Positions 1,581 to 22,497 of a stretch of DNA of 22,497 nucleotides are shown here, piece after piece (positions within the stretch are counted from its first letter, which is position 1; each line of letters starts with the position of its first letter). Source of the stretch: a virus; the IMG/VR virus record IMGVR_UViG_3300020411_002554, positions 1 through 22,497 of that record; one strand, given 5' to 3'. Under the pieces are notes generated by a model, which was not told the DNA's origin, did not search any database, and saw nothing but the letters and a program-made list of their open reading frames with translations. A program made the position numbers and the translations under genes.

Positions 1581-1584
1581 CCAG

Positions 1585-1609: not shown

Positions 1610-1621
1610 AGTGTTTTTACT

Positions 1622-1629
1622 TATAAATA
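1622..1629 (+). promoter_or_regulatory. T4-type late promoter box, distal
   Basis: An exact TATAAATA, the T4 late-promoter -10 element recognised by the gp55-type sigma factor with no -35 needed, lies 12 bp after the terminator T-run and 53 bp before gp25. Together with a second copy 26 bp downstream it should drive the baseplate operon late in infection. Confidence 0.8.
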
Positions 1630-1647
1630 AAGAATTGAGATTATAGA

Positions 1648-1655
1648 TATAAATA
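1648..1655 (+). promoter_or_regulatory. T4-type late promoter box, proximal
   Basis: This is a second exact TATAAATA, 27 bp before the gp25 start codon. Transcription would begin about 6 bp further on, leaving a leader near 20 nt. In tandem with the box at 1622 it gives two late starts for one operon. Confidence 0.8.
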
Positions 1656-1682
1656 AATCTAGCAAACTGTTTACTAAATTGA

Positions 1683-2081
1683 ATGAAAACTAGGGTATCT
1701 AGGTCATTTAAAGATATTAATTTATCATTTAAGCCCCATCCAATCACAAAAGATATTACAGTCATCAAAGATGCGAATGCAATCAAGAGATCTGTAAGAA
1801 ATTTGGTAGAAACAATGCCAAGAGAAAGGTTTTTTGCTTCTAATTTAGGAACTGATATACGAGGAAGTCTTTTTGATTTCTGTGATTTTGGTACTGCTTC
1901 TGTTATACAGAAACAAATTATAACAACGATTGAAAATTATGAACCAAGAGTGGATAATTTGAATGTTGAAGTATTTCCAAGACCAGATAACAATGAATTT
2001 GAAGTAAATATCTTCTTTGAAATCATTGGTCAACAGTTTCCTGCTCAAGCATTTCAATTCATATTAGAGTCATCAAGATAA
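1683..2081 (+). CDS. 25: baseplate wedge subunit gp25
   Basis: This is the gp25-like baseplate wedge protein (GPW/gp25 family), which in T4 sits at the wedge core with gp6 and gp53 and contacts the sheath. The 132-aa length matches the T4 protein. The family pattern is visible: ITKDITVIKDANAIKRSVRN (21-40) with the I.N..AI..S..NL signature, MPRERFF (45-51), NLGTDIRGSLFDF (54-66), and the conserved EPR (87-89) followed by VDNLNVEVFPR. The family was once called lysozyme-like, but its role in the virion is structural. It is the first gene after the tandem late promoters and lies 1 bp before gp6. No clear Shine-Dalgarno is seen before the ATG, which is the first in the frame. Confidence 0.95.
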   Translation: MKTRVSRSFKDINLSFKPHPITKDITVIKDANAIKRSVRNLVETMPRERFFASNLGTDIRGSLFDFCDFGTASVIQKQIITTIENYEPRVDNLNVEVFPRPDNNEFEVNIFFEIIGQQFPAQAFQFILESSR

Positions 2082-2082
2082 T

Positions 2083-4005: not shown

Positions 4006-4006
4006 T

Positions 4007-7000
4007 ATGATAAGTACGGGTATTGATAAAAGAATTAAAGTTCAACAAATTATTGAAAATCAACTTCCAGAATTTATATTAGCTGAAAGTCCAAAAACTG
4101 TAGATTTTTTAAAACAATATTATATTTCTCAAGAATATACTGGTGGTCCAATAGATTTAGTTGATAATTTAGATCAGTATTTAAAATTAGATAATTTAAC
4201 TCCAGAAGTTATTACTGGAGAAACAAAATCAACTGGAATAACTACTTCTGGTGATACTACAATTTCAGTTGAAACTACAAAAGGATTTCCAAATGAGTAT
4301 GGTTTATTAAAAATTGGAAGTGAAGTTGTAACATATACAGGTATAACAACTAATAGTTTTACTGGATGTAAACGTGGATTTAGTGGAATAACAACATATA
4401 AAGATGCTAATAATCCATCAGAGATAATATTTTCAGATTCATCTGCAGATTCTCATGTAGAAGGAATCAAGGTACAGAATTTAAGTGCTTTATTTTTACA
4501 AGAATTTTATAAAAAGTTAAAGAAAACTTTTACACCTGGATTGGAAAACTCTGATTTTGTAAGTGATTTAGATGTAAATAATTTTATAAAGGAAGCAAGA
4601 ACATTTTATCAAGCAAAAGGTACAGAAGAATCTTTTAGAATTTTATTTAATGTATTATATGGGGTAAATCCAAAAGTAATTGATCTTGAACAATATTTAA
4701 TAAAACCATCGTCAGCAAGATATGTAAGACGAGAAAGAATAGTAGCAGAAAGAATATCTGGAGATCCTTTAAAACTAAAAGGACAAACAATAATTAGAAC
4801 AACAGATTCCTCTACTACAGCTTCAATTTCTGAAGTTGAAGTACTGACAGGAATAGGTGGAATATATGGAACATCAGATTATTATAGTTTAGACATTTTT
4901 GTTGGATATGATGATGAAGAATTTGTAACTGGAACATTTAATGTAACAGGTAAAACTAAAGTAATATCTAATGTCACTACAGAAAGCAAAGTTATAACAG
5001 TTGATTCTACTATTGGTTTTGGTGCAACGGGTACAGTTATTGCTGGTCTTAATACAAGTATTACATATACCGATAAAACTGTAAATCAATTTTTAAATTG
5101 TTCAGGTATAACCTCACCAATAACATTAGGTTCTGATCTTATTATTGATGATAAGATTTTTGGGTATGAAAATGGAGATTTAACGAAGAAAGTAGAGTTA
5201 AGAATAACTGGAGTTTTAAAAGAACTTGTTCCCTCTCCAAATAATAAATTAGCTCTAGAAGGAGAAACAATTAGTATTAAGAGTATTGGTGAAATAATTC
5301 AAAATCCAGATTATGATGCAACTCAAAAAGAAATATTTGCAAATTCTTGGAATTATAATACTTCAAGCAATTACGATGTTAAAGAAACTACTACAAATCA
5401 AAGTGCAAGTTTTATCTTAAAATCTACTATAGATAAATCTAGTTTAAAAGAAGGAGATTCTGTTCAATTTTTAGTTAAAAATAGTGATCCATTTTCTTTA
5501 GGAACACTTATTGCAGAATCTGTTGTTAGTGAGATTAAAAAATCTGAAAATAAAGTTTTATTAGAAGATACAATAACTGATTTAAGTGCAAAAAATCAAT
5601 ATGTAATTAGAAGATTATTAAAGAAAGCATCTAGCACATATGATTTAATTAAATTTGGAAATGATACTTTAACTACAGAAATTCAAAATGTTTATAATGA
5701 ATCTGATGAAAGTTTATATGTAGCAAGTAATTCCTTACCAGCATATGAAATTGATACAAATATATTAAAATCTACTATTTCTAACGTAGTTGTAAATGAT
5801 ACTATTCGGGATTATAATCCAATAACTAGAAAATATTCAACAATATCATTTAATTCTGATACTACTTTTATAACTGGAGATAGAGTATATTATGAACCAC
5901 AAGGAAATCCTCTGGTTGGAATATCAACTGGATATTATTATATTAAAAATTTTGAAGCAAATAAAATAAAATTATATCAATCATTAGCATTTATTAAATC
6001 AAATGATAATATTGAATTTGATATTCCATTAGATACTACCACTTCACATACTTTTATTTTATCTGATCATTATGATAGGAAAATAACTCCTCAAAAAATA
6101 TTAAAGAAATTTCCAATAGATGTTAAACAAAATCTAGGTAAAAAAGTAAAAACTATTCCTGGATCTGTCGGAATGTTGATAGACGGTGTTGAAATAGAAA
6201 ATAATAAGTCTACAGATAGTATTTTTTATGGTTCTATAAGTAATTTTTCAGTTATTGGTAATGGAAGTGATTATGATGTAGTTAATCCTCCTGTAATTGA
6301 TATAGATTCTATAGAATCTCCTGTACCAACTAAAGCATTAGTAAGTCCTGTTATAAAGGGTGATATAAAGGAATTTATAGTTGATCCACAAGAATATGAT
6401 ATAGAAAATGTTGCATCAATAAAAATATCTGGTGGAAACGGAGGAGGAGATTTATTACAACCAATTATTTCTTATAGAAATAGAGTTTTAGAATTTAATG
6501 GAGTAACTACATCATTTGGTGGTGGTGTTGATACTTATTCAGAAACTATAACATTTAGTACTCCACATAATTTGACTAGTGGTCAAGTATTAATTTATGA
6601 TAGAAATAAAAATCAACAATTAGGAATTGGAACATTTAAGGGTAGTAATATTTCTGCTTCTGAATTTTTAATAGATGGTTTGCCATATTGGCCAGAGGTT
6701 GTAGGTTTGTCTACAATTAGACTTTATAGAAGTGAAAATGATTATATTAGTGGTATTAATACAATAGGATTTACTGAGTCATTTAAAGATGGTATTCATA
6801 AATTTAGAATAAAAGATTCTAAGAAAACTTTATCTGGAGTTAGAATTGTAGAGACTGGTAAACCATATTATTGTAGAAAGGTTTATGTTAATCCTACTGG
6901 AATATCTACAGAAAAATCAATAGTTACATTTAATAATCATGGATTTTCTGATGGAGAATTAATTTCATATCAAGCATCTGTTGGATTAGGATCTACAGCA

Positions 7001-10000
7001 CCTGAATCTATTTCTGGATTAACTACTATAAGTCAATATAAAATAATTAAAATTGATGATGATAGTTTTAGGTTATCTAATGCTGGCGTAGGTGGAACTG
7101 ATAATACTGATTATAATCGTAAAAAATATGTTAATTTTAATACTAAAGGAACTGGATATCAACTATTTAAGTATCCTGATATAGAAGTTACTACAGAAGT
7201 AATATATTCAGTATCAACTTCAGATAAAATAAAAATAACACCAGTAATAAAAGGTGAAATAATAGATGCATCTTTATACCAAAAGGGAGTTGGATATGGT
7301 GTTACTGATATTATTAATTATGAAAATACTCCAAATATTAATGTTAAAAATGGTTTAACAAGAACTGATAAACTTATAACTCCATCTTTACTTCCTATAA
7401 TATCTAATGGAAAAATAGTTAATGTTAATATTCAAGATGGTGGTGATGAATTTTATTCTCCTCCAGATTTAACTGTTGTTGGTGATGGTATAGGTGCTAA
7501 ATTAAGAGCAGTTATTGATACAGATGAAAATTCAGAAACATATCTAAAAATTATTAATGTAATTATTGTAAATGGTGGATCTAATTATAGCTATGAGAAA
7601 ACAAAAGTAAATATAACTCCAAGAGGAAAGAATGCTGCATTTAATATTTCAATTGATGAATTAAGTTTATGTGGTATTCAAACAAATTCACCATATTCTT
7701 CAAGATATAGTGATAAAAAATTAAGTTTATCTAATGATGGGTTAAAATATTCTATTGTTGGATATTCAACTCAGATTGGGGAAGATGAATTTAGACAGGA
7801 AAGTGGTAAACATTCACCAATAATTGGATGGGCATACGATGGAAATCCAATTTATGGTCCATATGGATATGTGGATCCTTTAGATGTTGATTCTGGTATA
7901 AAAATATTAGAAACTGGATATGTAAAAAATTCTACTATTGAAAATAGATCAGATTTACCTTTTGAAATAGGATTTTTTGTAGATGATTATAGATATTCTC
8001 CATCATCTTCTACTGATTTAGATGAGCATAATGGTAGATTCTGTAAAACTCCAGAATATGAAGATGGTGTGTATGCTTATTTTGTATCTATAAATTCTCT
8101 AACAAAAGAACCAAAATATCCATATTTTATTGGAAAAACATATAAATCTATACCAAGTGCTTTAGATAGTAGATCAACATTAACACAATCATTTGATTTT
8201 AATAATTCAAATTTAGTTAGAAATACTTTTCCATATAAATTAAATGATAATTCAGCTAATAATGATTTTATTGTTGAATCTAATGAAATATTATCACAAA
8301 TAACAAAAATTACTGCAGTATCTCAAGGTAGTATTGATTCTTTAGAAATTGTTAAATCTGGAGAAAATTATAATGTTGGTGATCTTGTAAAATTTGATAA
8401 TAGTAATACAGAGGGTAGTGGAATAAGTGCTTCTGTATCTAAATTAGATGGTAAGGAAATAGATAATATTGATACTTCATATGAATCTTTAAATAATGTA
8501 ACTTTTATTTGGAAAAATTCAAATACAGTTTCTGTTTTTGTTCCAACTACTCATCAATTAGAAATTGGTAATAATGTTGAAATATCAGGGTTAACTACGG
8601 ATATTTCATCTGCAGATGGTTTATCATTAATAGGTAATAAAGTCGTATCTGGTATTCCTACTGAATCTACTATTTTATATAAGCAAGTTGCTTCAAATGG
8701 AACTCCTGGTGTAGTAACTGATATTTACGTATATAAGACAGATCTTATTTCTATTGGAAGTAGTATAGGAATAGGTACTGAAAAATTAGTGGTTTTAAAT
8801 AAATTTGATGATAGAAATATTTTAAGAGTTAAAAGAGGTGTTACTGGAACAGCACACACTTTATCATCAAAAGTAAATTTAATTCCTAAATCATTTAATA
8901 TAAACTTTAGATCAGATTCTTTTGATTCAAAATTAAATGATATTGTTTATTTTAATCCTAGAGAATCTATAGGAGTTGGAACAGCATTAGGCAACCCTGG
9001 TATATCTTCATCAATAACTGTTTCTATTGGTGATACTGGAAGACAAGTATCTATTCCAGCTCAAAGTATGTATTTGCCAAATCATCCATTTACTACTGGC
9101 CAGCAAATTACCTTCAAAAAACCACCTTCAGGTGGATTATCTATAGAGGTTTCTAGAGATGGTTCAGCAGCTGAATCATTTAATATACCATTATCAGGAT
9201 CTAGTCAAACATTATATGCTATTAATAAGTCTAAAGATTATATTGGAATTGTAACTCAAGTAGGTTTAACTACATCTAACGGATTATATTTTAGATCTAA
9301 TGGTGATAATGATTATGAATATTCATTTGAATCTAATTTTAATCAAATAACTGGAAATTTAGAAAGAATAAATTCAAAAGTTACTTTAACTACATCTCAT
9401 ACTTTATCTATGGGAGATATAGTTAGTTTAAATATAAATCCAAATCAATCAGTTGGTATTGGAACTTCTACTTCTGTTAGGGTTAAATATAATTCTGTAA
9501 TTGATAGTGTATTAATAAATCAAATTGGTTTTACTTCTGCAGGAATTAATACATCTACAAATATAATAACTTTAAATTCTCATGGATTAAAAACAGGTGA
9601 TAAGGTTTATTATGATGCTACAGATGATATATCTAGTGGATTGCAAACTGGTAGTTATTTTGTTTATAAAGTCAGTGATAATCAGTTAAAGTTAGCAGAT
9701 ACTTTATATGATTCTCAATTAATTCCACCAAATGTTGTAAATTTGGTATCAATTGGTGGGTCAGAACATAGTCTATCTTTAATTAATCCTCCAATAAGTG
9801 TAGTAAAAAATAATAATTTAGTTTTTGATCTTTCAGATTCTTCATTATCTGGTTTAGATTTTAAAATATATCAAGATCATGATTTTAATAATAATTTTGT
9901 GTCTACTGGAGCAACAAATATTAATGTTGTTTCTACTTCAGGAACAATTGGAGTTACTTCAACTGCCTCATTAACACTAAATTATTCTATTGAAAATCCA

Positions 10001-13000
10001 ATAAATCTTTTTTATAATGTTGAAAAATCAGGTTTTATAAGTACATCCGATATAGATGTTGTTAATGGATCTAAAATATTATATGTTAATAGTAAATATA
10101 ATAAAGATTATTCAATTGTTGGAATTGGAACAACTACATTTGATATAAGATTATCCGAAAAACCAGAAAATTTAGTATATACTCAAAATAATACATCCGA
10201 TTTAGAATATTCAACTAATTCAAAAACTGAAAGAGGATCTATTAATAAACTTAGTTTAGATTTTGGTGGAAGTGGATATAAAGAGTTACCTAAATTTGTA
10301 AGTGTTGCTTCTACTACAGGAGTTAATGCAAAAATAATACCAGGATCTTCTACTGGTAATGTAATTGAAAATACTGAATTAGGAAATATTGGATTTGAGT
10401 ATTCTTCAGATAAAACTTTAAAGCCATTAGCTAGAATATCTCCAGTAATAACTACAAAAAATTCAAATAAGATAGTATCTATAAGTATTGTTAGTGGTGG
10501 AAGAGATTATATAACACCACCTACATTAACTATTGTTGATCTTGATTCAAAAGAAATTGTGAATAGTGGTTCTTTACAAGCAAATGTAAGTAAAGCGACA
10601 CAATCAATTTCTAGTGTTGATATAATTTCTGTTCCAAAAGGTATTGGAGATTGTAAGATCTTTAGTGTAGATAATACAAATGGTGTTCAAATAACAAATA
10701 TTGCAATTGGTGGTACAGTAGTTACAAATAATCTTACTGGTTTAGTAACATTTACTTTGGCAACACCAATTTTAGGATTTACTACTGCACCATTTGCAAT
10801 TGGGGATAGTGTATTTGTCGAAAATGTTGAAAATGAGTATGGAAATACTATAAATTCTCCCAATAATCAATTTAATTTTTATCCAGTAACTGGAGTTGTT
10901 GGAGGAAGTAATCCAAATCCATTTAAATTTGAAATTAATTTAAATAAAATAGTAACAAATCCTGGATTAGCAAAAACTAGTCAAACATATGCTTCTGTAG
11001 TTAATTTTAGTAATTATCCAAAATTTGATATTACAACAGATCTTTCACCGTTTAGTATTGGTGAAGATATTTTGGTTTCTAGAAATAATGAATTATTTAA
11101 AAACGTTGGTCTTACTTTAGATAAAGAATCAAATAATTACGTAAAAGTTTCGGGTAATTATGATTTAAAGGTTGGTGATAAATTAAAAGGTTTATTTACT
11201 GGTTCAATAGCTACTATTAATAGTTTATTTGAAAATAAAGGAGATTATTTAGTAGATTATTCTTCTCCTAAAAGTAAAGGTTGGTCTGATGATGTTGGTA
11301 AATTAAATATAGATTACCAAGTAATTCCAGATAATGATTATTATCAAAATCTATCCTATACAATTCAAAGTCCAATTACCTATCAAACATTAGTAAGCCC
11401 TGTAAATAAATTATTACATACAAGTGGTCTTAAAAACTTTGCTGATGTTGGAATATCATCTGCGGTTGGAGTTGGTTCAACTACAACTGTAGATTCTACA
11501 TCAATTATAAGGGATTTAACAACTGAAAATAGAGTAGATGCTATTGATAACTTTGATTTAGTACGAGATATTGATATTATACAAAATCCTGAAAGATCGA
11601 AATTTATTAATTTCCAAAATAAAAAACTTGCAAATTATTTTGAATGTTCAACTAATAATGCTCTTAAAATAGACGATATTAGTACTTTATTTTCAGATTC
11701 TACAAATAATGCTAGATTAGATGGTAGTTTACCACTTACTAATTCTTTTAATAGATTTTTAATTCAAACTAAAGTTCCCCCTTCTCCAACAACGGGATTA
11801 TTAGAGACTACAAATAGTCTTCAATTAACAGAATTGGTAACATCTGTAGATTTTACTAATAAAAATATTTACACTATTCAAAAAGGTTCTTTAAGTGATG
11901 AAACTAAATTAGTTGATATTCTTGGGTATAAAGATATAGATGATAATTATCTTTTACAATTTAATCCAGTTGATGTATATAATACTGATTTAGATATTAA
12001 AATTTTAGATCAATCATTTATATCTGGAGTAAATCCTGTTGGAATTGCTACAACAAGTCTTGGATTTGTTAGTTTGACAGGAAGAAATATTAATGTATCT
12101 GCTTCTACTACTTCAACTATAATATCCTCAAATATTGATAATATAGAATCTTATTTTGCTACTATTTCAATAAATGATGATACTGCGGTTGAAAATAATA
12201 TAGTAGAACTTTATGTAACACATGATGGTCAAGATTCTTATATTTCAAATTATTCATTAGAAACCAATACTGGAAATTCAATAGGAACATTTACATCTAA
12301 TTATGAAGCTTCAAGTGGAATTTTATCATTAAATTATGAAAATGATAGAACAAATCAAGTATTAGTTAAATCTAGAATAGTTGGTTTTGGTACAACTGCA
12401 TCTGGTACTGGAACATATAGATTTAAATCAGATTCACAAATTGATGGATCTGAAAATTCTGCTAGATTAGAATCCAAATTTGTTGGTATAGCAGCAACAT
12501 CCACAATAGCTGGATTTACAACATCTAAAGATACTTGTATTAAGAGTATAGTTAGAGTTTCTATAGGTAATACCAGTGCATTACATCAAGTTTTGATGGG
12601 TCATGATGGAAGTAATACTTTTATTACCCAATACCCATTTATATCTATTGGATCAGAATCTGGAATCGGTACGTTTACTTCAGAATTTGATGGATCTAAT
12701 ATTAATTTAATATTCCATCCAGATTCTAATTTTATAGGAGTTGGTAATATACAAGTTCAATCATATAATGAAATTATTAATTCAGATCAAGATTTAATTA
12801 ATATTACACCAACTTTAACTTATGGTAAGTCATCAGAATCTTTATCTCTATTACAATTTGATTCTATAAATGGTCAAAGATCAAATAGAGGTTCATTTAA
12901 ATTAAAAAATAAAGGTAATTTAATATTTGCTAATTATTTTGAACCATCTGTTGGTCTTAATACAGTAACTGGTCAATTTACAATTGAAAATAATTTCTTT

Positions 13001-16000
13001 AATAGAAATGAAAGATTAATATACACAGCTGGTTCATCTGTAGATGGTATTACTGCTTCACCAATAGTGATGTCTAATGGAAATCCTTTACCTAGTGAAG
13101 TTTATGTATCTCTTCCTTCAGGAACAACTAATTCAAATGTATTTGGATTATCAACTACTAGAGGAGGAACTTCTCTGACTTATAATAGTATAGGAGCAGG
13201 AAATAGACATTTATTGGAAATGTATGAAAAAAATGAAAAAACTCTAATTACTCTTGATAATGTAATTCAATCACCAATATCATACACACCAATAACATCT
13301 ACATTGTCTAATAATATTAGTGGTCAAGTTTCTATATCAACTTCAATAATATCTTTAGCTGGAATAACATCTATTGTTATTAATGATGTTTTAAAAGTAA
13401 ATGATGAATATTTAATAGTAAATAATGTTGGTTTTGGAACTACTAGTAGTGGTCCTATATCAAATACTGGATCTTTAGCATTAGTAGATGTTACTAGAGC
13501 ATCTATTGGATCAACATCAACTGTTCATTCTGATAGTTCTAGTATTAGATTGTATAAGGGTGGATATAATATAGTTAAGGAAAATATTTACTTCACTAAT
13601 CCTCCTAGAGGAAAGAATTTACTTATAAAAGATGAATCTAATCGTGATTTTGCTAGAGCAAGTTTTAGTGGAAGAGTATTTTTAAGACAAGATTATTCTT
13701 CTAATGCAATTTTTGATGATGTTTCACATGAATTTACAGGTATAGCTCAAACCTTTAGAACATCTATATCTGGTGTTAATACAACTGGTCTTACTACTGG
13801 TAGCAGTTTCTTAACTATTAATGGTATATTCCAATATCCAACTACTGAAAAGAATCCTTTAAACAATTATAATTTTAGTGAATCTGCTGGAATAACAAGT
13901 TTTGTATTTAGTGGAATTTCTTCTGCAGATGGAACACAAATAATAAGTGAATCTGATGTTAATCAAAATCAATTACCAAGATCTGGTCAAATTATATCAA
14001 TTGGATATACAGGTGGATTGGGATATGCACCTTTAGCTGGTGCTGCTGTTACAGCAATTACTAGTGCTGGTGGAACTATTACTTCTGTAGGATTGGGAAG
14101 TATGGATTTTCATGGATCTGGATATCGTTCTGGGTTAAGTACATCGGGAGATGGTATTATTCATATTGATGTTGTAGATGAAGCATATGATCATAGATTT
14201 GTAAGTTCTGGTATTAACTCTATCACCATTAAATCTGGTGGAATTGGAGTAGATGCTACATTTACGCCTACAGATGCTCCTTATACATCATCAACGGGTA
14301 TTGTAACCCTTACAAAGGATAATCATGGTCTCATTACATCAGATTCATATACAGCAACTACAGGAACCGTTTATAATCCCACTACAGGTGTTTTAACTAT
14401 AAAACTTAGTTCATCACCTTCACCAGCATTAGTAAATGGTCAAATAGTAAAATTTGATAACAATTCTCTTACATTTACATGTGCTAAGGATCTTCATGCT
14501 ACAAATCATACATATCCAAGATCAACTGATCCTGTAGGTGGCAAATGGTTACCAATATCTAATGTAACTGGAGGTGACCAATTTGATATTAATGTTCTTG
14601 AAACTATTCCATCATCAAATACAGGTATCCATACATTTGTAACTGCTACTACTAATGGTGTTAAGAGATCTGCCAATAAGGTTTCTATTGCTACTAGTGC
14701 TTTAGTATATACTTGTGCAAGAGATGCTTATAGCACCGATCATGCATATCCAAGAACATCAGATCCAGCTTATAGTACCGATTTAAATATTCTTGAGGCT
14801 ACTGATAATTACTTTAAAGTTGGAGTTGGAACTGGTGGTGGAGCTGGAATTGGAGCAACAATAACTGCAACAGTAGGTATTGGTGGAACTTTGGCATTTA
14901 CTGTTGTTGGTGGTGGATCTGGATATATTAATCCAGTTGTTATGTCACCATCTCCAACATACGAAAATCTTACAATAACTGGTACTTCTAGATTAGGTCT
15001 TGGTGCTACAACAGATACTGGTATAGGATTATTATTGACTATTGACGTTGGTGGTAGTAATACAACTGGTATTGGATCTACTTTATTTGAAGTAACGGAA
15101 TTTAAAATTGCTAGATCTGGATATGGGTTTAGAAAAGGTGATAAGTTTAAACCTGTTGGATTGGTTACTCATAAATCATTATCTTCACCAATTTCAGAAA
15201 TAGAATTTACAGTTAATGAAGTATTTACAGATACTTTCTCTTCTTGGAATGTTGGTGAATTTGATTATATTGATTCTATTGCTTATCTTCAAGATGGTGT
15301 TAGAACAAGATTCCCATTGTATTATAATGATGAATTAGTATCTTTTGAATCTGAAGTAGGTTCTGCATTAGAAATGCAATCTTTACTATTAATATTTGTC
15401 AATAATGTTTTACAGATTCCAGGAGAATCTTATATTTTTGAAGGAGGAACTTCTTTCCAATTCACTGAGGCACCAGATCAAAGTGATAATATCGCAATCT
15501 TCTTCTTTAAAGGAACAAATAATTTAGATGTTACCTTTGTTGAGGTTGATGAAAGTATTAAGTCTGGTGATGAAGTTCAAATATTAAACAATCCTTCTAA
15601 TATTTTACCCACTGGAGATCAAAATATTAGAACAATAGCTGGAATAACAACTGCTGATACTATTGAAACAGAATTATATTATGCAAAAGGTATTGATGAA
15701 GTTAATTTTAAACCTTTAAGATGGTTAAAACAAAAAACTGATAAATTTGTAAATGGTGAATTAATCACTAAAGTTAGACCTTTAATAGAACCATTGGTAT
15801 TCCCTGATGCAAGAATTATTAAAGATGTAGCATCTGGTGACTCCACTATCTATTTGGATAGTATTAATAATTTCTTCTCTTACGATAGTCCTACAACAGT
15901 AGATACTTTAGTTATTGATGATAATATTACTAGACAATCTGCTAATCTTAATGCAGTTGTCTCTGCTGCTGGAACCATTCAATCAATAACAGTTACTGAC

Positions 16001-16741
16001 GGTGGAAGTGGATATGTTGGAGCAACAACATCTATTTCAATTGGTATTCCTACCATAGGCATTACTACTTTTATAAAAGATGATGGAACAGTTGGAACAG
16101 GAGAAACTGCAATAGCAACTGCATCAATTACTGCTGGAATTATTACTAGTATTACTATTACTAATCCAGGTGTTGGATATACTAGTTCCTCTGTTCCTAA
16201 TGTTATAGCACCAGTTCCAATAACACCATCCGAAGAAATTACTGGATTTACTGGTTCTGCAGGTTTTTCAGGTATTGTAACGGGTATAAGTGTTCTTAGT
16301 AGTTCTACTATAAAATTCTTCCTTGATAAAGGAACTGGAACATTTGGTGGATTAGCAAATGGAGATCCAATTTATATCTTTGATACTTCTGTTGGTTCTG
16401 GAGCAACTTCTACTATAATATCAACAGGTGCACCTGTAGGTGTTGGAACAACATTCTTTGACAATATTTACATTGTTAGTTCTCTAAGTTCAAGTAGTAA
16501 TTTTGGTGAATTTGTTGCAGGAGTAAAGACAGATACATCCATTGTAGGTATTGCTACAGAAAATACTATTTGTGGTAAATTCTCTTGGGGTAAGTTAACT
16601 GGTGGTAGTAGATCATCAACAAATCCACTTACACTTACTGTTTCTGGTAACACTGTTAATTCGGGATTGACAACTTTCCCTAGAGTGCAAAGAAGAGGTT
16701 CTGGTCTAAGAGAAACAGGTGCTATAAAAGATTCAACTTAA
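4007..16741 (+). CDS. giant baseplate/structural protein in gp7 position (4244 aa)
   Basis: A single uninterrupted frame of 4244 codons occupies over half the window; the product should exceed 400 kDa. By position between gp6 and gp8 it is the counterpart of T4 gp7 (1032 aa), but it is about four times longer. The N-terminus (1-250) is globular: LKQYYISQEY (about 35), GCKRGFSG (about 119-126), then FYQAKGTEESFRILFNVLYG and a basic YVRRERIV segment (about 200-246). The body is repetitive beta-type sequence. HG-x-x-x-GD modules lie near 615, 973 and 1854. GG-x-GY-like motifs lie near 751, 1145, 1189, 2087, 2164, 3370, 3635, 3998 and 4053. A YHYH-like domain spans 1265-1385, a duplicated module 2719-2925, and paired C-D-H-YPR-DP motifs 3489-3587. 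A conserved-looking C-terminal part has FDYIDSIAYLQDGVRTRF (about 3750) and ends FPRVQRRGSGLRETG. I see no coiled coil or membrane segment. It is preceded by a good ribosome binding site 1 bp after gp6. A wedge role is inferred from position and N-terminal character; orthology to gp7 over the full length is not claimed. Confidence 0.85.
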   Translation: MISTGIDKRIKVQQIIENQLPEFILAESPKTVDFLKQYYISQEYTGGPIDLVDNLDQYLKLDNLTPEVITGETKSTGITTSGDTTISVETTKGFPNEYGLLKIGSEVVTYTGITTNSFTGCKRGFSGITTYKDANNPSEIIFSDSSADSHVEGIKVQNLSALFLQEFYKKLKKTFTPGLENSDFVSDLDVNNFIKEARTFYQAKGTEESFRILFNVLYGVNPKVIDLEQYLIKPSSARYVRRERIVAERISGDPLKLKGQTIIRTTDSSTTASISEVEVLTGIGGIYGTSDYYSLDIFVGYDDEEFVTGTFNVTGKTKVISNVTTESKVITVDSTIGFGATGTVIAGLNTSITYTDKTVNQFLNCSGITSPITLGSDLIIDDKIFGYENGDLTKKVELRITGVLKELVPSPNNKLALEGETISIKSIGEIIQNPDYDATQKEIFANSWNYNTSSNYDVKETTTNQSASFILKSTIDKSSLKEGDSVQFLVKNSDPFSLGTLIAESVVSEIKKSENKVLLEDTITDLSAKNQYVIRRLLKKASSTYDLIKFGNDTLTTEIQNVYNESDESLYVASNSLPAYEIDTNILKSTISNVVVNDTIRDYNPITRKYSTISFNSDTTFITGDRVYYEPQGNPLVGISTGYYYIKNFEANKIKLYQSLAFIKSNDNIEFDIPLDTTTSHTFILSDHYDRKITPQKILKKFPIDVKQNLGKKVKTIPGSVGMLIDGVEIENNKSTDSIFYGSISNFSVIGNGSDYDVVNPPVIDIDSIESPVPTKALVSPVIKGDIKEFIVDPQEYDIENVASIKISGGNGGGDLLQPIISYRNRVLEFNGVTTSFGGGVDTYSETITFSTPHNLTSGQVLIYDRNKNQQLGIGTFKGSNISASEFLIDGLPYWPEVVGLSTIRLYRSENDYISGINTIGFTESFKDGIHKFRIKDSKKTLSGVRIVETGKPYYCRKVYVNPTGISTEKSIVTFNNHGFSDGELISYQASVGLGSTAPESISGLTTISQYKIIKIDDDSFRLSNAGVGGTDNTDYNRKKYVNFNTKGTGYQLFKYPDIEVTTEVIYSVSTSDKIKITPVIKGEIIDASLYQKGVGYGVTDIINYENTPNINVKNGLTRTDKLITPSLLPIISNGKIVNVNIQDGGDEFYSPPDLTVVGDGIGAKLRAVIDTDENSETYLKIINVIIVNGGSNYSYEKTKVNITPRGKNAAFNISIDELSLCGIQTNSPYSSRYSDKKLSLSNDGLKYSIVGYSTQIGEDEFRQESGKHSPIIGWAYDGNPIYGPYGYVDPLDVDSGIKILETGYVKNSTIENRSDLPFEIGFFVDDYRYSPSSSTDLDEHNGRFCKTPEYEDGVYAYFVSINSLTKEPKYPYFIGKTYKSIPSALDSRSTLTQSFDFNNSNLVRNTFPYKLNDNSANNDFIVESNEILSQITKITAVSQGSIDSLEIVKSGENYNVGDLVKFDNSNTEGSGISASVSKLDGKEIDNIDTSYESLNNVTFIWKNSNTVSVFVPTTHQLEIGNNVEISGLTTDISSADGLSLIGNKVVSGIPTESTILYKQVASNGTPGVVTDIYVYKTDLISIGSSIGIGTEKLVVLNKFDDRNILRVKRGVTGTAHTLSSKVNLIPKSFNINFRSDSFDSKLNDIVYFNPRESIGVGTALGNPGISSSITVSIGDTGRQVSIPAQSMYLPNHPFTTGQQITFKKPPSGGLSIEVSRDGSAAESFNIPLSGSSQTLYAINKSKDYIGIVTQVGLTTSNGLYFRSNGDNDYEYSFESNFNQITGNLERINSKVTLTTSHTLSMGDIVSLNINPNQSVGIGTSTSVRVKYNSVIDSVLINQIGFTSAGINTSTNIITLNSHGLKTGDKVYYDATDDISSGLQTGSYFVYKVSDNQLKLADTLYDSQLIPPNVVNLVSIGGSEHSLSLINPPISVVKNNNLVFDLSDSSLSGLDFKIYQDHDFNNNFVSTGATNINVVSTSGTIGVTSTASLTLNYSIENPINLFYNVEKSGFISTSDIDVVNGSKILYVNSKYNKDYSIVGIGTTTFDIRLSEKPENLVYTQNNTSDLEYSTNSKTERGSINKLSLDFGGSGYKELPKFVSVASTTGVNAKIIPGSSTGNVIENTELGNIGFEYSSDKTLKPLARISPVITTKNSNKIVSISIVSGGRDYITPPTLTIVDLDSKEIVNSGSLQANVSKATQSISSVDIISVPKGIGDCKIFSVDNTNGVQITNIAIGGTVVTNNLTGLVTFTLATPILGFTTAPFAIGDSVFVENVENEYGNTINSPNNQFNFYPVTGVVGGSNPNPFKFEINLNKIVTNPGLAKTSQTYASVVNFSNYPKFDITTDLSPFSIGEDILVSRNNELFKNVGLTLDKESNNYVKVSGNYDLKVGDKLKGLFTGSIATINSLFENKGDYLVDYSSPKSKGWSDDVGKLNIDYQVIPDNDYYQNLSYTIQSPITYQTLVSPVNKLLHTSGLKNFADVGISSAVGVGSTTTVDSTSIIRDLTTENRVDAIDNFDLVRDIDIIQNPERSKFINFQNKKLANYFECSTNNALKIDDISTLFSDSTNNARLDGSLPLTNSFNRFLIQTKVPPSPTTGLLETTNSLQLTELVTSVDFTNKNIYTIQKGSLSDETKLVDILGYKDIDDNYLLQFNPVDVYNTDLDIKILDQSFISGVNPVGIATTSLGFVSLTGRNINVSASTTSTIISSNIDNIESYFATISINDDTAVENNIVELYVTHDGQDSYISNYSLETNTGNSIGTFTSNYEASSGILSLNYENDRTNQVLVKSRIVGFGTTASGTGTYRFKSDSQIDGSENSARLESKFVGIAATSTIAGFTTSKDTCIKSIVRVSIGNTSALHQVLMGHDGSNTFITQYPFISIGSESGIGTFTSEFDGSNINLIFHPDSNFIGVGNIQVQSYNEIINSDQDLINITPTLTYGKSSESLSLLQFDSINGQRSNRGSFKLKNKGNLIFANYFEPSVGLNTVTGQFTIENNFFNRNERLIYTAGSSVDGITASPIVMSNGNPLPSEVYVSLPSGTTNSNVFGLSTTRGGTSLTYNSIGAGNRHLLEMYEKNEKTLITLDNVIQSPISYTPITSTLSNNISGQVSISTSIISLAGITSIVINDVLKVNDEYLIVNNVGFGTTSSGPISNTGSLALVDVTRASIGSTSTVHSDSSSIRLYKGGYNIVKENIYFTNPPRGKNLLIKDESNRDFARASFSGRVFLRQDYSSNAIFDDVSHEFTGIAQTFRTSISGVNTTGLTTGSSFLTINGIFQYPTTEKNPLNNYNFSESAGITSFVFSGISSADGTQIISESDVNQNQLPRSGQIISIGYTGGLGYAPLAGAAVTAITSAGGTITSVGLGSMDFHGSGYRSGLSTSGDGIIHIDVVDEAYDHRFVSSGINSITIKSGGIGVDATFTPTDAPYTSSTGIVTLTKDNHGLITSDSYTATTGTVYNPTTGVLTIKLSSSPSPALVNGQIVKFDNNSLTFTCAKDLHATNHTYPRSTDPVGGKWLPISNVTGGDQFDINVLETIPSSNTGIHTFVTATTNGVKRSANKVSIATSALVYTCARDAYSTDHAYPRTSDPAYSTDLNILEATDNYFKVGVGTGGGAGIGATITATVGIGGTLAFTVVGGGSGYINPVVMSPSPTYENLTITGTSRLGLGATTDTGIGLLLTIDVGGSNTTGIGSTLFEVTEFKIARSGYGFRKGDKFKPVGLVTHKSLSSPISEIEFTVNEVFTDTFSSWNVGEFDYIDSIAYLQDGVRTRFPLYYNDELVSFESEVGSALEMQSLLLIFVNNVLQIPGESYIFEGGTSFQFTEAPDQSDNIAIFFFKGTNNLDVTFVEVDESIKSGDEVQILNNPSNILPTGDQNIRTIAGITTADTIETELYYAKGIDEVNFKPLRWLKQKTDKFVNGELITKVRPLIEPLVFPDARIIKDVASGDSTIYLDSINNFFSYDSPTTVDTLVIDDNITRQSANLNAVVSAAGTIQSITVTDGGSGYVGATTSISIGIPTIGITTFIKDDGTVGTGETAIATASITAGIITSITITNPGVGYTSSSVPNVIAPVPITPSEEITGFTGSAGFSGIVTGISVLSSSTIKFFLDKGTGTFGGLANGDPIYIFDTSVGSGATSTIISTGAPVGVGTTFFDNIYIVSSLSSSSNFGEFVAGVKTDTSIVGIATENTICGKFSWGKLTGGSRSSTNPLTLTVSGNTVNSGLTTFPRVQRRGSGLRETGAIKDST
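7799..8155 (+). other. YHYH-like domain within the giant protein
   Basis: Residues about 1265-1385 contain HSPIIGWAYDGNPIYGPYG, the hallmark of the YHYH domain. Further on come LDEHNGRFCKTPEYEDGVYAYF (about 1338-1360, with H1341 and C1345) and YPYFIGKTY (about 1373-1381). In the position where many relatives have Y-H-Y, this copy has Y-A-Y. The domain is known from secreted bacterial proteins and from cyanophage structural proteins; its biochemical role is not established as far as I know. Confidence 0.8.
12161..12790 (+). repeat. tandem duplication of a ~127-aa module
   Basis: Two divergent copies lie at residues about 2719-2797 and 2850-2925 of the giant protein. Aligned landmarks are THDGQDSYISNY with GHDGSNTFITQY (offset 127 residues), SIGTFTSNYEASSG with GIGTFTSEFDGSN, and LSLNYEND with INLIFHPD. 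DNA identity is low, so the duplication is old. The module resembles the vtHDG..ayitEY...GTF units frequent in cyanophage structural proteins. Confidence 0.7.
14471..14767 (+). repeat. paired C-x2-D / H-x-YPR-x2-DP motifs
   Basis: Residues 3489-3509 and 3567-3587 of the giant protein share the frame C-A-K/R-D-x4-x-H-x-YPR-x-x-DP with exact 78-residue spacing (C3492/C3570, D3495/D3573, H3501/H3579, YPR 3503-3505/3581-3583). Cys is rare elsewhere in this protein, so conserved Cys, Asp and His at a fixed period suggest a structural or metal site. I recall the same motif in other marine phage structural proteins. Confidence 0.75.
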
Positions 16742-16746
16742 TATGG

Positions 16747-16754
16747 TATAAATA
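16747..16754 (+). promoter_or_regulatory. T4-type late promoter box before gp8
   Basis: An exact TATAAATA lies in the only sizeable gap (34 bp) of the structural block, 21 bp before the gp8 start. It gives gp8 and the downstream gene a late start of their own, independent of reading through the 12.7-kb giant gene. Confidence 0.8.
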
Positions 16755-16775: not shown

Positions 16776-18425
16776 ATGTCGGCAATTGTAACAGACCAAT
16801 TTAGAATTAATAACGCAGGTAATTTTTTAGGAAATGTAAATACTTCCGAAAACTCATATTATGTGTTTGTTGGACTATCAAATCCTACTGCAGCTGCAAC
16901 AAGATCATCAGTAGCTTTTGGTAGAAATGCTAGTCTTACTGATTGGAATGATGATGCTACTAGAAAAAAACCAATAGATAATTTTAATTATCTAAGTCAT
17001 GTTAAAGATACTATGATTTTTGGTAAGAAAATTACCTCAGATAATATTAGAAGAGTTGTAAGAAAAATTGAATGGACTAAAGAAACTAGATATGATATGT
17101 ATCGCCATGACTATTCTAAGGATAACATGGCACCAAATGGAAAAACAGCTAGATTATATGATTCTAATTATTATGTAATTAATAAAGATTTTAATGTTTA
17201 TATTTGCATATCTAATGGTTCATCTGGTATTAATACTGAAGGTAATCGTTCTTTAAATGAACCATCTTTAACTGGATTAGAACCTTTTAGAGCATCTGGT
17301 GCTAGTGATGATGGTTACCTTTGGAAGTATCTATTTACAATATCTCCAAGTGATATTATAAAATTTGATGCAACAGAATATATACCATTACCAAATGACT
17401 GGTCTACAAGTGATGATGCAAATATATCAAATGTTAGAGATAATGCAAATTCTGATATTAATAATAATCAGATAAAAACAGTTTATATTGAGAATCAAGG
17501 ATCTTCTTATAAAAATGCAGGTGCTGGAGGGCAAGAATTTAATATTGTAGGTGATGGATCTGGTGGAAAAGCAATTGTAGAAGTGGGTAGTGATGCTAAA
17601 ATTAGTGATGTAAAAGTAAGTGTTGGTGGTAAAGGATATAGTTATGGAATTGTTGATTTAACAACAATTCAACCATCAAATCCTGATGCAAAATTAATTC
17701 CTATTATTCCACCATCAAAAGGTCATGGATATAATTTATATAAAGAATTGGGTGCAGATAGAATTCTAGTTTATGCTAGATTTGATGATGCAACAAAAGA
17801 TTTTCCTATTGATACTAAATTTTCTCAAATAGGAATAGTTAAAAATCCAACATCTATCGGATCTACTGAAATTTTTACTCAAAATCAATATTCTTCAGTA
17901 TCATCTTTATATCTTGATAGTTTTCCTGATGGTACAATTGAAGTTGGGGATTTAATTACACAAGATGTAAAAAGTGGTAGTAGTGTAATTGGTCAAGTAA
18001 GAGGTTATGTTGTTTCTTTTGATAAAATATCAACTGATTCTGGTAATCCAATAGCAGTTTTAAAATATTATAGAGATAGATCTTTATATTTTAATACAAC
18101 AACAGGAGATCAATCAGACCATGCTGGTATTGGTACCATAAGTGGTTCTAATGGTCAAGTATATGATTTTACTGCAAGTGGAGAGACTATTAGTGGAACA
18201 AATGGATCAACATCATATACTGTAACTATAAATTCTAATTTTAGTGGTATTACAACAAATCCTACAGGAACTAAGGTTATTGATCTTGGTGTTGAATTTA
18301 AAAATGGGTTATCTCAATCTGAGATAAATAATCAGTCGGGTGATATTATCTATTTGGACAATAGAAAATCAATTACTAGAGATAGTAGACAAAAAGAAGA
18401 CATTAAAGTTATCCTGGAATTCTAA
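16776..18425 (+). CDS. 8: baseplate wedge subunit gp8
   Basis: This is gp8-type baseplate wedge protein, a dimer in T4 that links gp7 and gp10 in the outer wedge. Recognition rests on landmarks in order: an N-terminal AIVTDQFRINNAGNFL segment, IEWTKETRYDMYRHDY (about 108-123, parallel to the T4 RRDWGDTRY region), and DGYLWKYLFTISP (about 178-190, matching T4 DGYVWEYLFEIPP). FSQIGIVKNP (about 348-357) and a C-terminus SGDIIYLDNRKSITRDSRQKEDI then closely parallel the T4 end. At 549 aa it is about 215 residues longer than T4 gp8. The extra material includes a GG-x-GY module (about 237-292), like those in the giant protein, and a Gly/Ser/Thr-rich stretch near the C-terminus (about 445-505). A late promoter lies immediately upstream. 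The downstream gene follows after 3 bp. Confidence 0.9.
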   Translation: MSAIVTDQFRINNAGNFLGNVNTSENSYYVFVGLSNPTAAATRSSVAFGRNASLTDWNDDATRKKPIDNFNYLSHVKDTMIFGKKITSDNIRRVVRKIEWTKETRYDMYRHDYSKDNMAPNGKTARLYDSNYYVINKDFNVYICISNGSSGINTEGNRSLNEPSLTGLEPFRASGASDDGYLWKYLFTISPSDIIKFDATEYIPLPNDWSTSDDANISNVRDNANSDINNNQIKTVYIENQGSSYKNAGAGGQEFNIVGDGSGGKAIVEVGSDAKISDVKVSVGGKGYSYGIVDLTTIQPSNPDAKLIPIIPPSKGHGYNLYKELGADRILVYARFDDATKDFPIDTKFSQIGIVKNPTSIGSTEIFTQNQYSSVSSLYLDSFPDGTIEVGDLITQDVKSGSSVIGQVRGYVVSFDKISTDSGNPIAVLKYYRDRSLYFNTTTGDQSDHAGIGTISGSNGQVYDFTASGETISGTNGSTSYTVTINSNFSGITTNPTGTKVIDLGVEFKNGLSQSEINNQSGDIIYLDNRKSITRDSRQKEDIKVILEF

Positions 18426-18428: not shown

Positions 18429-21400
18429 ATGTCACAGAAAACAAATTTAAATATAAGTCCTTATTATGACGATTTTAATAAGGACAATAGTTTTTACAAA
18501 GTCTTATTTAGACCAGGTAGACCTGTTCAGGCTAGAGAACTAACTACTTTACAGTCAATATTAGATAATCAGGTAAAATCTTTTGGATCTCATATTTTTA
18601 AGGAAGGATCAGTAGTCATTCCTGGTGGTCTTTTATATGATAATGCCTATTATTCTGCAAAAATAGAATCAGTTCATCTTGGTCTTCCAGTATCTCTTTA
18701 TAGTGATCAATTAATAGGTAAAGAATTTAAAGGTCAGAATTCTGGTGTAAAGGTTCAAATTAATGATATTAAATTTCCAAAAGATTCTACAGATATTACA
18801 GATGTAACTATTTTTATAAAATATCTTACTGGAAATGATGATAATCAAATATCAAATTTAAGTGATGGTGAACCATTAATTGCTTTACAGGATATAACTT
18901 ATGGTAATACAACAATATATAACGGAGAAAGTGTTGCTTCATTAGTTCTATCAGATGCCTGTGCGGTTGGTAGTGCGGTAAAACTTACTCCTGGTGTCTA
19001 TTTTATTAAAGGAACGTTTGTAAACGTTTCTGCAGACACTATAGTATTAGATCCATATTCTAATGATCCATCATATAGAGTTGGATTAAGTATTTCAGAA
19101 ACTATTGTTACGGCAAAAGATGATTCATCATTATATGATAATGCTAAGGGATTTTCTAATTTTGCAGCACCAGGTGCTGATAGGTTAAAAATAACTGCAA
19201 CTTTAGCAAAGAAATCATTAGATGATACTGATGATATTAATTTTGTTGAATTAATTAAACTTAGAGCAGGAGAGGTTAAAAGGTTACAGGATTATTCTGT
19301 ATATAATATTTTAGCTGAAGAATTTGCAAAAAGAACTTATGAAGAATCTGGAGATTATTCCATTGATAATTTTAAAGTTCGTATATCAGAATGTTTAGAT
19401 GACCGTATTTCAAATGGAGGTGTTTATAAATCAAACGAAACTACTGAACAAGGAAATACTCCATCTGAGGATTTAGCATGTGTTGAGGTAAGCCCTGGAA
19501 AAGCATATGTTAAAGGTTTTCGTATTGAGGAACCTGGAACCACAAATGTAGATTTTGATAAACCAAGAGATACTGATAGTGTAAACACTGCACTAGTTCC
19601 TTTTAATATGGGAACTTTAATTCGTGTCAATAATGTAGCAGGAACACCTATTATAACCACGAATATTGCAGAAAATGTAGTTACTCTTTATAGTAGAAGA
19701 AAAACCACAACTGCAGCAGCTGCAAAACCTACGGATGCCCATCCAATAGGAAAAGCAAGGGTATATGCATTTGGATTAAGAAATACTCCATATGTTGATG
19801 CTGCTACTGAATGGAATTTACATTTATTTGATGTTCAAACATACACATATTTGACATTAAATGCTCCATTATCTGCAGACGTTAGTTCTTTTGTTAGAGG
19901 TGCTAACAGTGGTGCTACAGGATTTATCAATGAGGATTATACTACAAAAACTGAAATAGCTCTTTCAGAAACTTCTGGATCATTTATTCCTGGTGAACAA
20001 ATAATTATTAATGAATTAGAAGATTCTGTTTCTAATAGATCAATAGTATCATTAAGACAATATACTATTGAAGATATAAAATCAGTATATCAAGATACAA
20101 ATGGTATGTCTAATGGAATATCTGGTTTTCTTGATTTCAGTGCGGATACTATACTTGAAACTACTAGCATACCATCATTACCAACTTTTAATAATAGTAT
20201 AATCTCTTCTGTAGATGGTAATACAGGAACAATAACTTCACCTGGTAATGCATTTAGTGGTATAACAACAGATTCTATTATTCAATATCAACGTGCAGGA
20301 ACAACTGATATTACATATAATAGAGTTTCTGATATTAGTGCAGATTTAAAAACACTTAGTATTGTTAAGGAAGGACTTAATGTCTCAGGCGTAGCGTTAG
20401 GAACTATTGGTATTAATACTGCAGCTTCAATATCTTTAGCAACACCTGTTATTGTAGACAAAGAAAATAGTGGATTATATGCCCCATTAGATAATAGTTC
20501 TATAAGTGAAGTTAATTTAGCAAATTCTACACTATCAGTTGCTTCTCAATCTCAAAAATTTACTTTATCAGGTAATTCTTGTACAACACCAATTTCTAAT
20601 CTATCACCTGGAATAACAAGTGCATTCTTTAGTAATTTTGATACTCAGAAGTATTCATTATTTTATCAGGATGGATCGGTAGAACCTTTAACAAGAGATC
20701 AATTTAAGTTAGTTGATGCTAGTTCAAAAGTTCAATTTAGTGGATTGGCAAAAAATTCTGGGTCTGCAGTTCTTAATGTTACTGTAGAAAAAGAAGGTAT
20801 CACAAATAAAACCAAAGAGTATATAAGAAGTAATCAAATTGTTATTAATAAAACTAGTGCAGGTGTAACAACAACTACTAGTGGTTTGACTAAAAATGAT
20901 TTCTATGGATTGAGAGTAGAAGATAAAGAAATATCATTAAATGTTCCAGATGTTGTAAATGTAGTAACTATATTAGAATCTTTAGATGCTAATGATCCAA
21001 CTCTTGATAAAATAACAACAATATCTGGGTTATCTTTGGATGTTAATAGTGTAATTGGTGAACAAATTGTTGGTTCTGAAACTGGAGCAGTTGCTCAATT
21101 AATTAATAGAGTAGATGGTCAAAATGTAGAAATTGCTTATCTTACAGATGTTAAATTTGTTATAGGTGAATTAATAACATTTCAAGAATCAAATATTGAA
21201 ACTACAGTTCAAGGAATAACAATTGGAAATAATTTAGATATTACTGAAAGGTATTCTCTTGATAAGGGGCAAAGAGAACAGTATTATGATTATTCTAGAA
21301 TAGTTAGAAAGAGGAATTCTTCTCCTCCTTCTAGAAGAATTTTAGTTGTTTATAATTCATATGAAGTTCCATCAACAGATCTTGGTGATTTATTTACTGT

Positions 21401-22497
21401 AAATTCTTATGATAAGAGTAGATATACTAATGATATACCAATATTAGCTAATGGTGTAAGAGCAACAGATGTTCTTGATTTTAGACCTAGAGTATCAACA
21501 AATGTAACTACTGATGCTTCTCCTTTTGCTTTTACTACTAGAAATTTCACTACATCTGGATCAACACCTTCTCTTGTAGTTTCTCCACAGGGAGATTCTA
21601 CTCTAGGATATAGTTATTACCTACCAAGGATTGATAAAATAACTGTTTCAGCTAATAAGGAGGATGGTGATGGAATATTCTCCGTTATTAAAGGATCATC
21701 TTCCCTTAATCCAAAACCCCCATCTTTAATAGATGGAGCTATGCATATTGCAACTGTTGAACTTCCAGCATACCTTTATAATGTAAATGATGCAAAAATA
21801 TCTCTTATTGATAATAAGAGATATACAATGAGAGATATTGGTAAATTAGAAGATAGAATAGAAAATTTAGAGATAGTTACAAGTTTAAGTTTACTTGAAT
21901 TAGATACTAAAACTCTTCAAATAAGAGATGGTGTTGGTGATAGATTTAAATCTGGATTTTTTGTAGATGATTTTAAAGATAATCAACGTCTTGATTTAGA
22001 AAATCAGGATAATACTGTTAATATTGATAGTGAAAATCAAGAGATGGTTGTTCCTATAGATTTCTATACAGTAAAACCAGTATTAGGTGTATCTGATAGT
22101 ATTAATATATCAAGTGCAGATTTTTCTCAAAATTTACCTTTACTTGATGATAATGTACAAAAAACAGGAGATTTAATTACTTTAGCATATACTGAAGTAG
22201 TATCTGATATTGGTAATCCTCAAGCAAGTAGGGTGGAAAATGTTAATCCTTATGAGGTTGTTGTTCGTAGAGGTAGAATTTTATTAACTCCATCTAGTGA
22301 TAATTGGACAGAAACTATAGAAATTGATGGTGGAACAATTACAAGAATTGGAGATAGAGCATCAGAAACTGCAAGTAGAGTATTAACAGGATCAAGACCA
22401 TTAGAATTTATTAGATCTAGAAATGTTGGATTTGCTGCATATTCATTAACACCAGGTGTTAGACATTATCCATTCTTTGAAGGAAGAAGTGGTATTG
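18429..22497 (+). CDS. large virion structural protein, DUF4815-like (3'-truncated by window)
   Basis: The frame is open from ATG for 1356 codons to the right edge, with no stop; the gene is cut by the window, not broken. It starts MSQKTNLNISPYYDDFNKDN and continues FYKVLFRPGRPVQARELTTL, the signature of DUF4815 proteins in T4-like cyanophages. Other landmarks are VSPGKAYVKGFRIEEPG (about 356-372), ITERYSLDKGQREQYYDYSR (about 938-957), RATDVLDFRPRVS (about 1012-1024), GFFVDDFKDNQRLDLENQ and, near the edge, NPYEVVVRRGRILLTPSSDN and FIRSRNVGFAAY. It lies where T4 has gp9/gp10, next to gp8, so a pin, fibre-attachment or other tail appendage role is likely; I cannot equate it with gp10 from sequence alone. 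A 3-bp gap to gp8 suggests co-transcription from the late promoter before gp8. There are no signal or membrane segments. Confidence 0.85.
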   Translation, partial: MSQKTNLNISPYYDDFNKDNSFYKVLFRPGRPVQARELTTLQSILDNQVKSFGSHIFKEGSVVIPGGLLYDNAYYSAKIESVHLGLPVSLYSDQLIGKEFKGQNSGVKVQINDIKFPKDSTDITDVTIFIKYLTGNDDNQISNLSDGEPLIALQDITYGNTTIYNGESVASLVLSDACAVGSAVKLTPGVYFIKGTFVNVSADTIVLDPYSNDPSYRVGLSISETIVTAKDDSSLYDNAKGFSNFAAPGADRLKITATLAKKSLDDTDDINFVELIKLRAGEVKRLQDYSVYNILAEEFAKRTYEESGDYSIDNFKVRISECLDDRISNGGVYKSNETTEQGNTPSEDLACVEVSPGKAYVKGFRIEEPGTTNVDFDKPRDTDSVNTALVPFNMGTLIRVNNVAGTPIITTNIAENVVTLYSRRKTTTAAAAKPTDAHPIGKARVYAFGLRNTPYVDAATEWNLHLFDVQTYTYLTLNAPLSADVSSFVRGANSGATGFINEDYTTKTEIALSETSGSFIPGEQIIINELEDSVSNRSIVSLRQYTIEDIKSVYQDTNGMSNGISGFLDFSADTILETTSIPSLPTFNNSIISSVDGNTGTITSPGNAFSGITTDSIIQYQRAGTTDITYNRVSDISADLKTLSIVKEGLNVSGVALGTIGINTAASISLATPVIVDKENSGLYAPLDNSSISEVNLANSTLSVASQSQKFTLSGNSCTTPISNLSPGITSAFFSNFDTQKYSLFYQDGSVEPLTRDQFKLVDASSKVQFSGLAKNSGSAVLNVTVEKEGITNKTKEYIRSNQIVINKTSAGVTTTTSGLTKNDFYGLRVEDKEISLNVPDVVNVVTILESLDANDPTLDKITTISGLSLDVNSVIGEQIVGSETGAVAQLINRVDGQNVEIAYLTDVKFVIGELITFQESNIETTVQGITIGNNLDITERYSLDKGQREQYYDYSRIVRKRNSSPPSRRILVVYNSYEVPSTDLGDLFTVNSYDKSRYTNDIPILANGVRATDVLDFRPRVSTNVTTDASPFAFTTRNFTTSGSTPSLVVSPQGDSTLGYSYYLPRIDKITVSANKEDGDGIFSVIKGSSSLNPKPPSLIDGAMHIATVELPAYLYNVNDAKISLIDNKRYTMRDIGKLEDRIENLEIVTSLSLLELDTKTLQIRDGVGDRFKSGFFVDDFKDNQRLDLENQDNTVNIDSENQEMVVPIDFYTVKPVLGVSDSINISSADFSQNLPLLDDNVQKTGDLITLAYTEVVSDIGNPQASRVENVNPYEVVVRRGRILLTPSSDNWTETIEIDGGTITRIGDRASETASRVLTGSRPLEFIRSRNVGFAAYSLTPGVRHYPFFEGRSGI

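Follow-up and report, generated by a model that had tools for sequence, protein, structure and literature searches.

The ocean harbours abundant T4-like cyanophages. In T4 itself the baseplate wedge protein gp7 is a chain of 1032 residues (PDB 5iv5, 5hx2) encoded after gp6, and its helical core, at about residues 656-915, is preceded by some 650 T4-specific residues. Published comparisons place gp7 outside the marine groups: Sullivan 2010 lists it for the non-cyanophage core only (PMC3037559), and a study of pelagimyophages states that T4 gp7 is absent from cyano- and pelagimyophages, with VrlC as its substitute (PMC7029224). Existing annotations label the giant protein in this slot gp7, and that of P-SSM4 (7312 residues) is recorded as the largest bacterial-virus protein (PMC8553790). 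Here we analyse a complete IMG/VR record of 22,497 bases, IMGVR_UViG_3300020411_002554 (hereafter the window), in which one 4244-residue frame directly follows gp6. The frame encodes the orthologue of gp7 in a phage of the Kyanoviridae type (marine T4-like). Profile comparisons show that the gp7 helical core is present and collinear, that it is split by an insertion of beta modules, and that a further extension follows its second half. The kind of protein is known; what is new is the split-core anatomy and the case for the presence of gp7 in cyano- and pelagimyophages.

The assignment to gp7 rests on position and on profile matches to the N-terminal part of the core (blocks N1 and N2; Table 1). 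Gene order in the window is gp25-gp6-gp7-gp8-VrlC, with gp7 directly after gp6 as in relatives; the order gp25-gp6-X-gp8-VrlC is common to the window, phiM7 and HTVC008M, and gp25-gp6-X is kept in all cyanophages examined. When all PDB sequences were searched with a profile built from window residues 150-320 and relatives, T4 gp7 (E = 2.4e-4) and Klebsiella KP1 gp7 (E = 3.5e-4), at the motif DFYSTKGIEASYKFLFKVLYNE, were the sole matches up to E = 10. With the N-block profile T4 gp7 reached 18.3 bits, where the best of 200 shuffles reached 3.5, and hhalign aligned the N core with T4-like gp7 (E = 6e-7, probability 92) over T4 724-813, which reaches into domain V. Block N2 is homologous to T4 gp7 728-758, and the two proteins share the helix motif FYxxKGxEeSxxfLFxvLY and the domain-V-like stretch, while the correspondence of N1 to T4 656-712 is by position only. 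Single-sequence phmmer with the whole protein gave nothing useful from PDB and did not find T4 gp7, and profiles of residues 1-1150 and 3100-4244 matched no PDB sequence to E = 1; a narrower core profile was therefore needed. T4 gp53, considered as a source of the N-terminal homology, scored at noise level. The original prediction, made from the letters of the window, had proposed a wedge protein in the gp7 position of the baseplate operon, and both the locus (after gp25 and gp6, before gp8) and the profile matches bear this out.

The second half of the core is recognized through intermediates. In S-CREM2 and phiM7 the gp7-slot protein terminates in the motif YYQxFSYxI..HPxG of the C block, as does a 284-residue Ackermannviridae protein, and the block lies C-terminal to N2 in the window as it does in phiM7, HTVC008M and the Ackermannviridae gp7-like proteins. 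Searched against the HTVC008M gp7-slot protein, which had been left out of profile building, the C-block profile gave E = 2e-16; known gp7 slots excepted, no further open reading frame scored at E < 0.1 among 221 background frames. P46FS4 gp211 (Ackermannviridae, 284 residues, PF23786) and phiM7 gp92 (1006 residues) both show N2 and then the C block after gp6, like the window. The Ackermannviridae form is essentially without the insertion, its N and C blocks being nearly adjacent, and phiM7 gp92 stops at the C block and so lacks the C-terminal extension. The gap between the N and C blocks is about 20 residues in P46FS4 gp211, about 95 in T4 and about 2,110 in the window, where some 90% of the chain is insertion plus extension. 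In T4 the HPxG block corresponds to that of the window by position, and the T4 core lies well inside the chain, whereas that of the window begins at the N-terminus. The expectation that the first 250 or so residues would be conserved wedge sequence was correct, and the conserved stretch runs on to about residue 310. A conserved wedge C-terminus had also been expected; the second wedge block lies instead in the middle of the protein, at about residues 2425-2485. The true C-terminus is conserved among relatives and carries at residue 3799 the motif N[NG]VLQxPG..Y, which looks tail-fibre-like.

If gp7 had been lost from these phages, with VrlC in its place, the slot would be filled by an unrelated adhesin or fibre protein, as follows from PMC7029224. 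The restriction of gp7 to the non-cyanophage core (PMC3037559) and the failure of phmmer to find T4 gp7 would agree with such a loss. The profile search of PDB returns gp7s alone, however, and its match spans the T4 helix plus domain V; both core blocks occur in the same slot of HTVC008M gp055, phiM7 and P46FS4; and VrlC coexists with a gp7-slot protein in phiM7 and HTVC008M. We therefore consider an unrelated occupant of the slot very improbable, and the profiles obtained here do not uphold the published claim that cyano- and pelagimyophages lack gp7.

Several annotations bear on the same family. HTVC008M gp055 (33435-36485), annotated 'head closure Hc2', lies directly after gp6 and contains both gp7 core blocks (165-270 and 759-821); judged by these matches it is the gp7 of pelagiphages, which PMC7029224 had declared absent. 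P46FS4 gp211 (11742-12596, Ackermannviridae-type) and a Vibrio phage protein (11742-12749) are both also labelled 'head closure Hc2', and look like minimal gp7 wedge proteins. In Aeromonas phage AS-zj the interval from gp6 to gp8 (7421-10893), the expected place of gp7, has no annotated coding sequence; a brief look near the expected gp7 start found no long open frame.

The 4244-residue frame is real and is a single gene, not a fusion. It runs without interruption from the ATG at 4007 to the stop at 16741, as originally predicted, while the other five frames contain 168-642 stops over the same span; the chance of 4244 stop-free codons at this composition is about 10^-168. PHROG 2885, the family of giant cyanophage gp7, matches at full length (3411 bits, residues 2-4230 to 2-4178 of 4179). 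Compared with near relatives, codon second positions vary least along the whole gene, which is a coding-type substitution pattern. The size of the protein by itself might suggest an assembly or sequencing artefact joining separate genes, as might the interrupted frame at the gp7 slot of S-SKS1. Against this, the retrieved stretch (up to 3,745 residues) is free of premature stops in each of 80 IMG/VR relatives, six annotated cyanophages each encode gp7 as a single frame of 3,891-7,312 residues, and the substitution pattern extends over the full length. Because relatives keep unbroken frames, an artefact is already refuted, and we give it practically no weight; the fusion of separate genes that the prediction had named as its refutation is not seen. 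In S-SKS1 (stretch 8001-15000) the first in-frame stop is at 10122 and the first 7 kb are without coding-sequence annotation; phages other than S-SKS1 have intact copies. A foreign origin of the higher-G+C stretch at 13.5-15 kb was also considered. Third-position G+C is still low there (0.10 vs 0.06), and much of the raised overall G+C is accounted for by amino-acid composition, so that it was rejected as a sign of transfer.

Giant size is normal for the clade and is no peculiarity of this virus. T4 gp7 is indeed about a quarter as long, as originally stated. The orthologues have 1,937 residues in S-CREM2, 3,891 in S-8S53, 3,895 in S-SRM01, 5,195 in P-SSM2, 5,422 in S-CREM1, 6,378 in S-RIM2 and 7,312 in P-SSM4, and tblastn with the first 2,664 residues found 463 phage records, cyanophages or marine viruses. 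Giant gp7 is a regular feature of Kyanoviridae. P-SSM2 gp7 (PSSM2_111) and S-SRM01 gp194 share the slot and core layout of the window protein, with 40-45% identity over about 3,500 residues. P-SSM4 gp7 agrees in slot, in the three core blocks and in module types, but differs in having about 500 extra residues (seven B modules) between N1 and N2.

Absence from the particle, the other outcome that was to count against the prediction, is not seen either, since orthologues are present in virions. An orthologue of 6619 residues, S-SZBM1_208, was found in a virion proteome with 71 peptides and 13.5% coverage (PMC9146016), and the S-CREM2 orthologue, ORF122, with 91 peptides and 27.2% coverage (PMC10665884). 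Large size, block architecture and the low coverage of S-SZBM1_208 would all be compatible with a polyprotein, one chain cleaved during assembly into several baseplate subunits. We regard cleavage as improbable, given that the S-CREM2 orthologue was recovered as one entry, that the core blocks need both sides of the insertion, and that neither a protease site nor a gp7 precedent was identified.

The added sequence is largely modular. Modules were recognized by iterated profiles, which gave almost no matches in shuffled sequence, and the window contains two copies of A, four of C, seven of B (GGxGY) and two of E, plus a YHYH domain (PF14240; 75.4 bits against a Pfam gathering score of 25, covering profile positions 87-182 of 193 only). 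A module F seed (residues 2640-2725) revealed no internal repeats. Comparison among relatives indicates that gp7 length varies through tandem copy number of the GGxGY and TCxxD..HxYPRxxDP modules. B modules number 20 in P-SSM4 and S-RIM2, with seven placed between N1 and N2, and E copies across phages number 0, 0, 1, 2, 9 and 12, with none detected in S-SRM01, nine in P-SSM2 and 12 in P-SSM4. In 31 metagenomic open reading frames, E copy number correlates with the distance from core block C to the C-terminal motif (r = 0.84), a value that is descriptive since the sequences are related.

AlphaFold models were made for residues 1-1150 and 3100-4244. The first has a mean predicted local distance difference test score (pLDDT) of 75 and consists mostly of strands after about residue 240; the second has a mean pLDDT of 58 and beta structure in parts. 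The predicted middle of small beta modules is accordingly supported for residues 1-1150 and for parts of 3100-4244, the spans that the models cover. Foldseek found no match at E = 0.001 for either model. With VIA-align, barrels at residues 452-540, 586-688, 824-937 and 3445-3557 (window 5360-5626, 5762-6070, 6476-6817 and 14339-14677; of the HGxxxGDxVxY type and others) repeatedly match the ubiquitin E1 FCCH barrel at Z 6.5-8 and also align with phage tail and spike domains. KP1 gp7 (9f4a) residues 713-855 align with model residues 184-416 at Z 7.5 and a root-mean-square deviation of 11.3 over 136 residues, below the reliable range. Because all of these score where common arrangements do, the similarities are leads only, and the likeness to FCCH could be a chance similarity of fold.

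As a whole, the protein is likely to be best explained as the gp7 wedge subunit of a marine T4-like phage, in which a split but otherwise ordinary core bears a large peripheral arm or skirt, probably docking fibres or touching the host. By analogy with T4, the core would pack with two gp6 subunits and gp25, with one copy per wedge and six per baseplate. At 458 kDa per copy the protein would then contribute about 2.7 MDa, which agrees with the expectation of mass not present in T4. XM1 offers a precedent, in that unresolved stretches of its 242-residue gp7 orthologue (80-106 and the C-terminus) bind the tail spike (PMC10457771). In contractile injection systems, fibres are bound by the gp7-like part, which has been proposed as a hotspot for re-engineering and new superstructures (PMC8894135). 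The cyanophage expansions likewise lie within the core and after the C block. Insertion and extension may leave the core on the surface that carries fibres or spikes in other gp7-like proteins and form a peripheral arm or skirt. Such an arm would dock fibre proteins, touch the cyanobacterial surface, or both, and would relay the contact to the core as the trigger of sheath contraction.

Several points weigh against this account. The match of the C block to T4 gp7 865-889 is weak (hhalign E = 7e-4, probability 26) and does not rise above shuffles, and its profile gave only chance matches among PDB sequences, with no gp7 up to E = 10; the equivalence of this block to T4 therefore depends on intermediates and on block order. 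Model confidence is low for the helical core in residues 1-1150, a literature search found no cryo-electron microscopy structure of a T4-like cyanophage baseplate, and the arm or skirt, the copy number and the host contact of this particular protein are inferred.

The modules could also play a passive part as a rigid scaffold, standing in for T4 peripheral proteins (docking of the gp10/gp11 type) and not themselves binding the host. In T4, gp9, gp10 and gp11 come after gp8, but they do not follow immediately in the window or in S-SRM01; gp8 is enlarged too, and beta modules are common to gp7 and the gp8 profile (phrog_438 on S-CREM2 gp7). Variable tandem copy number suits surface contact better than a fixed scaffold, and we think a passive role possible at clearly less than even likelihood. 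Returning to an arm that contacts the host, a more specific proposal, to which we lend tentative and not quite even credence, is that the gp7 core of marine T4-like phages is an insertion hotspot, taking up beta-module arrays of adjustable copy number at fixed loops, and that six wedge arms of tunable length, which T4 lacks, make the first contact with picocyanobacteria and are wired directly to the trigger of sheath contraction.

Locating both halves of the gp7 core separates the machine from the add-on in proteins of up to 7,312 residues, which is of use for structural work. Naming tandem modules as a source of length variation makes hypotheses of host contact directly testable, and the result argues against the published view that cyano- and pelagimyophages are without gp7.

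Table 1. Features of the gp7 locus, in window coordinates.
Feature	Positions	Strand	Counterpart or basis
gp25 baseplate wedge protein, 132 residues	1683..2081	+	family matches
gp6 baseplate wedge protein, 640 residues	2083..4005	+	family matches
Giant gp7 orthologue, 4244 residues, 458 kDa, isoelectric point 4.8	4007..16741	+	phrog_2885 over residues 2-4230
Core helix block N1, residues ~10-66 (IENQLPEFI..FLKQYY)	4034..4204	+	same order in phiM7 11-39, AF3 268-324, S-CREM2
Beta module A copy 1 (GFPxxG..ExxxYT..FTGCxRG), between N1 and N2	4214..4402	+	
Core helix block N2, residues 155-245 (FYQAKGTEESFRILFNVLYG..IKPSSA)	4469..4741	+	T4 gp7 730-758, E 2.4e-4
T4 gp7 domain-V-like stretch, residues 246-310	4742..4936	+	profile match to T4 gp7 724-813
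Insertion of ~2,110 residues inside gp7 core, residues 311-2424	4937..11278	+	
Beta module A copy 2, residues 311-370	4937..5116	+	self-match of N-core profile, E 5e-7
Modules C (HGxxxGDxVxY beta-barrels), residues 606-670, 842-933, 966-1054	5822..7168	+	
YHYH domain (PF14240), residues 1264-1362	7796..8092	+	E 7.4e-21
Fourth module C (HGxxxGD), residues 1847-1922	9545..9772	+	
Core block C, residues ~2425-2485 (DNDYYQNLSYTIQSP..NKLLHTSGLKNFADV)	11279..11461	+	C-terminus of S-CREM2 and phiM7 gp7
C-terminal extension of ~1,760 residues, residues 2486-4244	11462..16738	+	absent in S-CREM2 and phiM7
Module E, two copies (TCxxD..HxYPRxxDP), residues 3481-3530 and 3558-3607	14447..14827	+	
Most conserved C-terminal block, residues 3700-3890, with NNVLQIPGESY	15104..15676	+	invariant columns
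gp8 baseplate wedge protein, 549 residues (T4: 334)	16776..18425	+	family matches
VrlC-type protein (DUF4815)	18429..22496	+	runs past contig end

Outside the coding sequences, the T4-type late promoter motif TATAAATA occurs at three sites, all intergenic and on the + strand, before gp25 and gp8 (1622-1655, 16747-16754). Shuffles give about eight sites by chance, so that the count, being lower, is no evidence. Upstream of gp25, at 1434-1612, a 48-codon basic open reading frame (MAKAKTGLNGNVFVESIPKKSRQGNGKHS...) precedes a terminator-like hairpin that carries a T run. Further upstream, at 534-1289, lies the gene of a 251-residue PHROG 1574 protein with weak glycosyltransferase similarity; S-SRM01 has the same gene ahead of its wedge genes (78% DNA identity).
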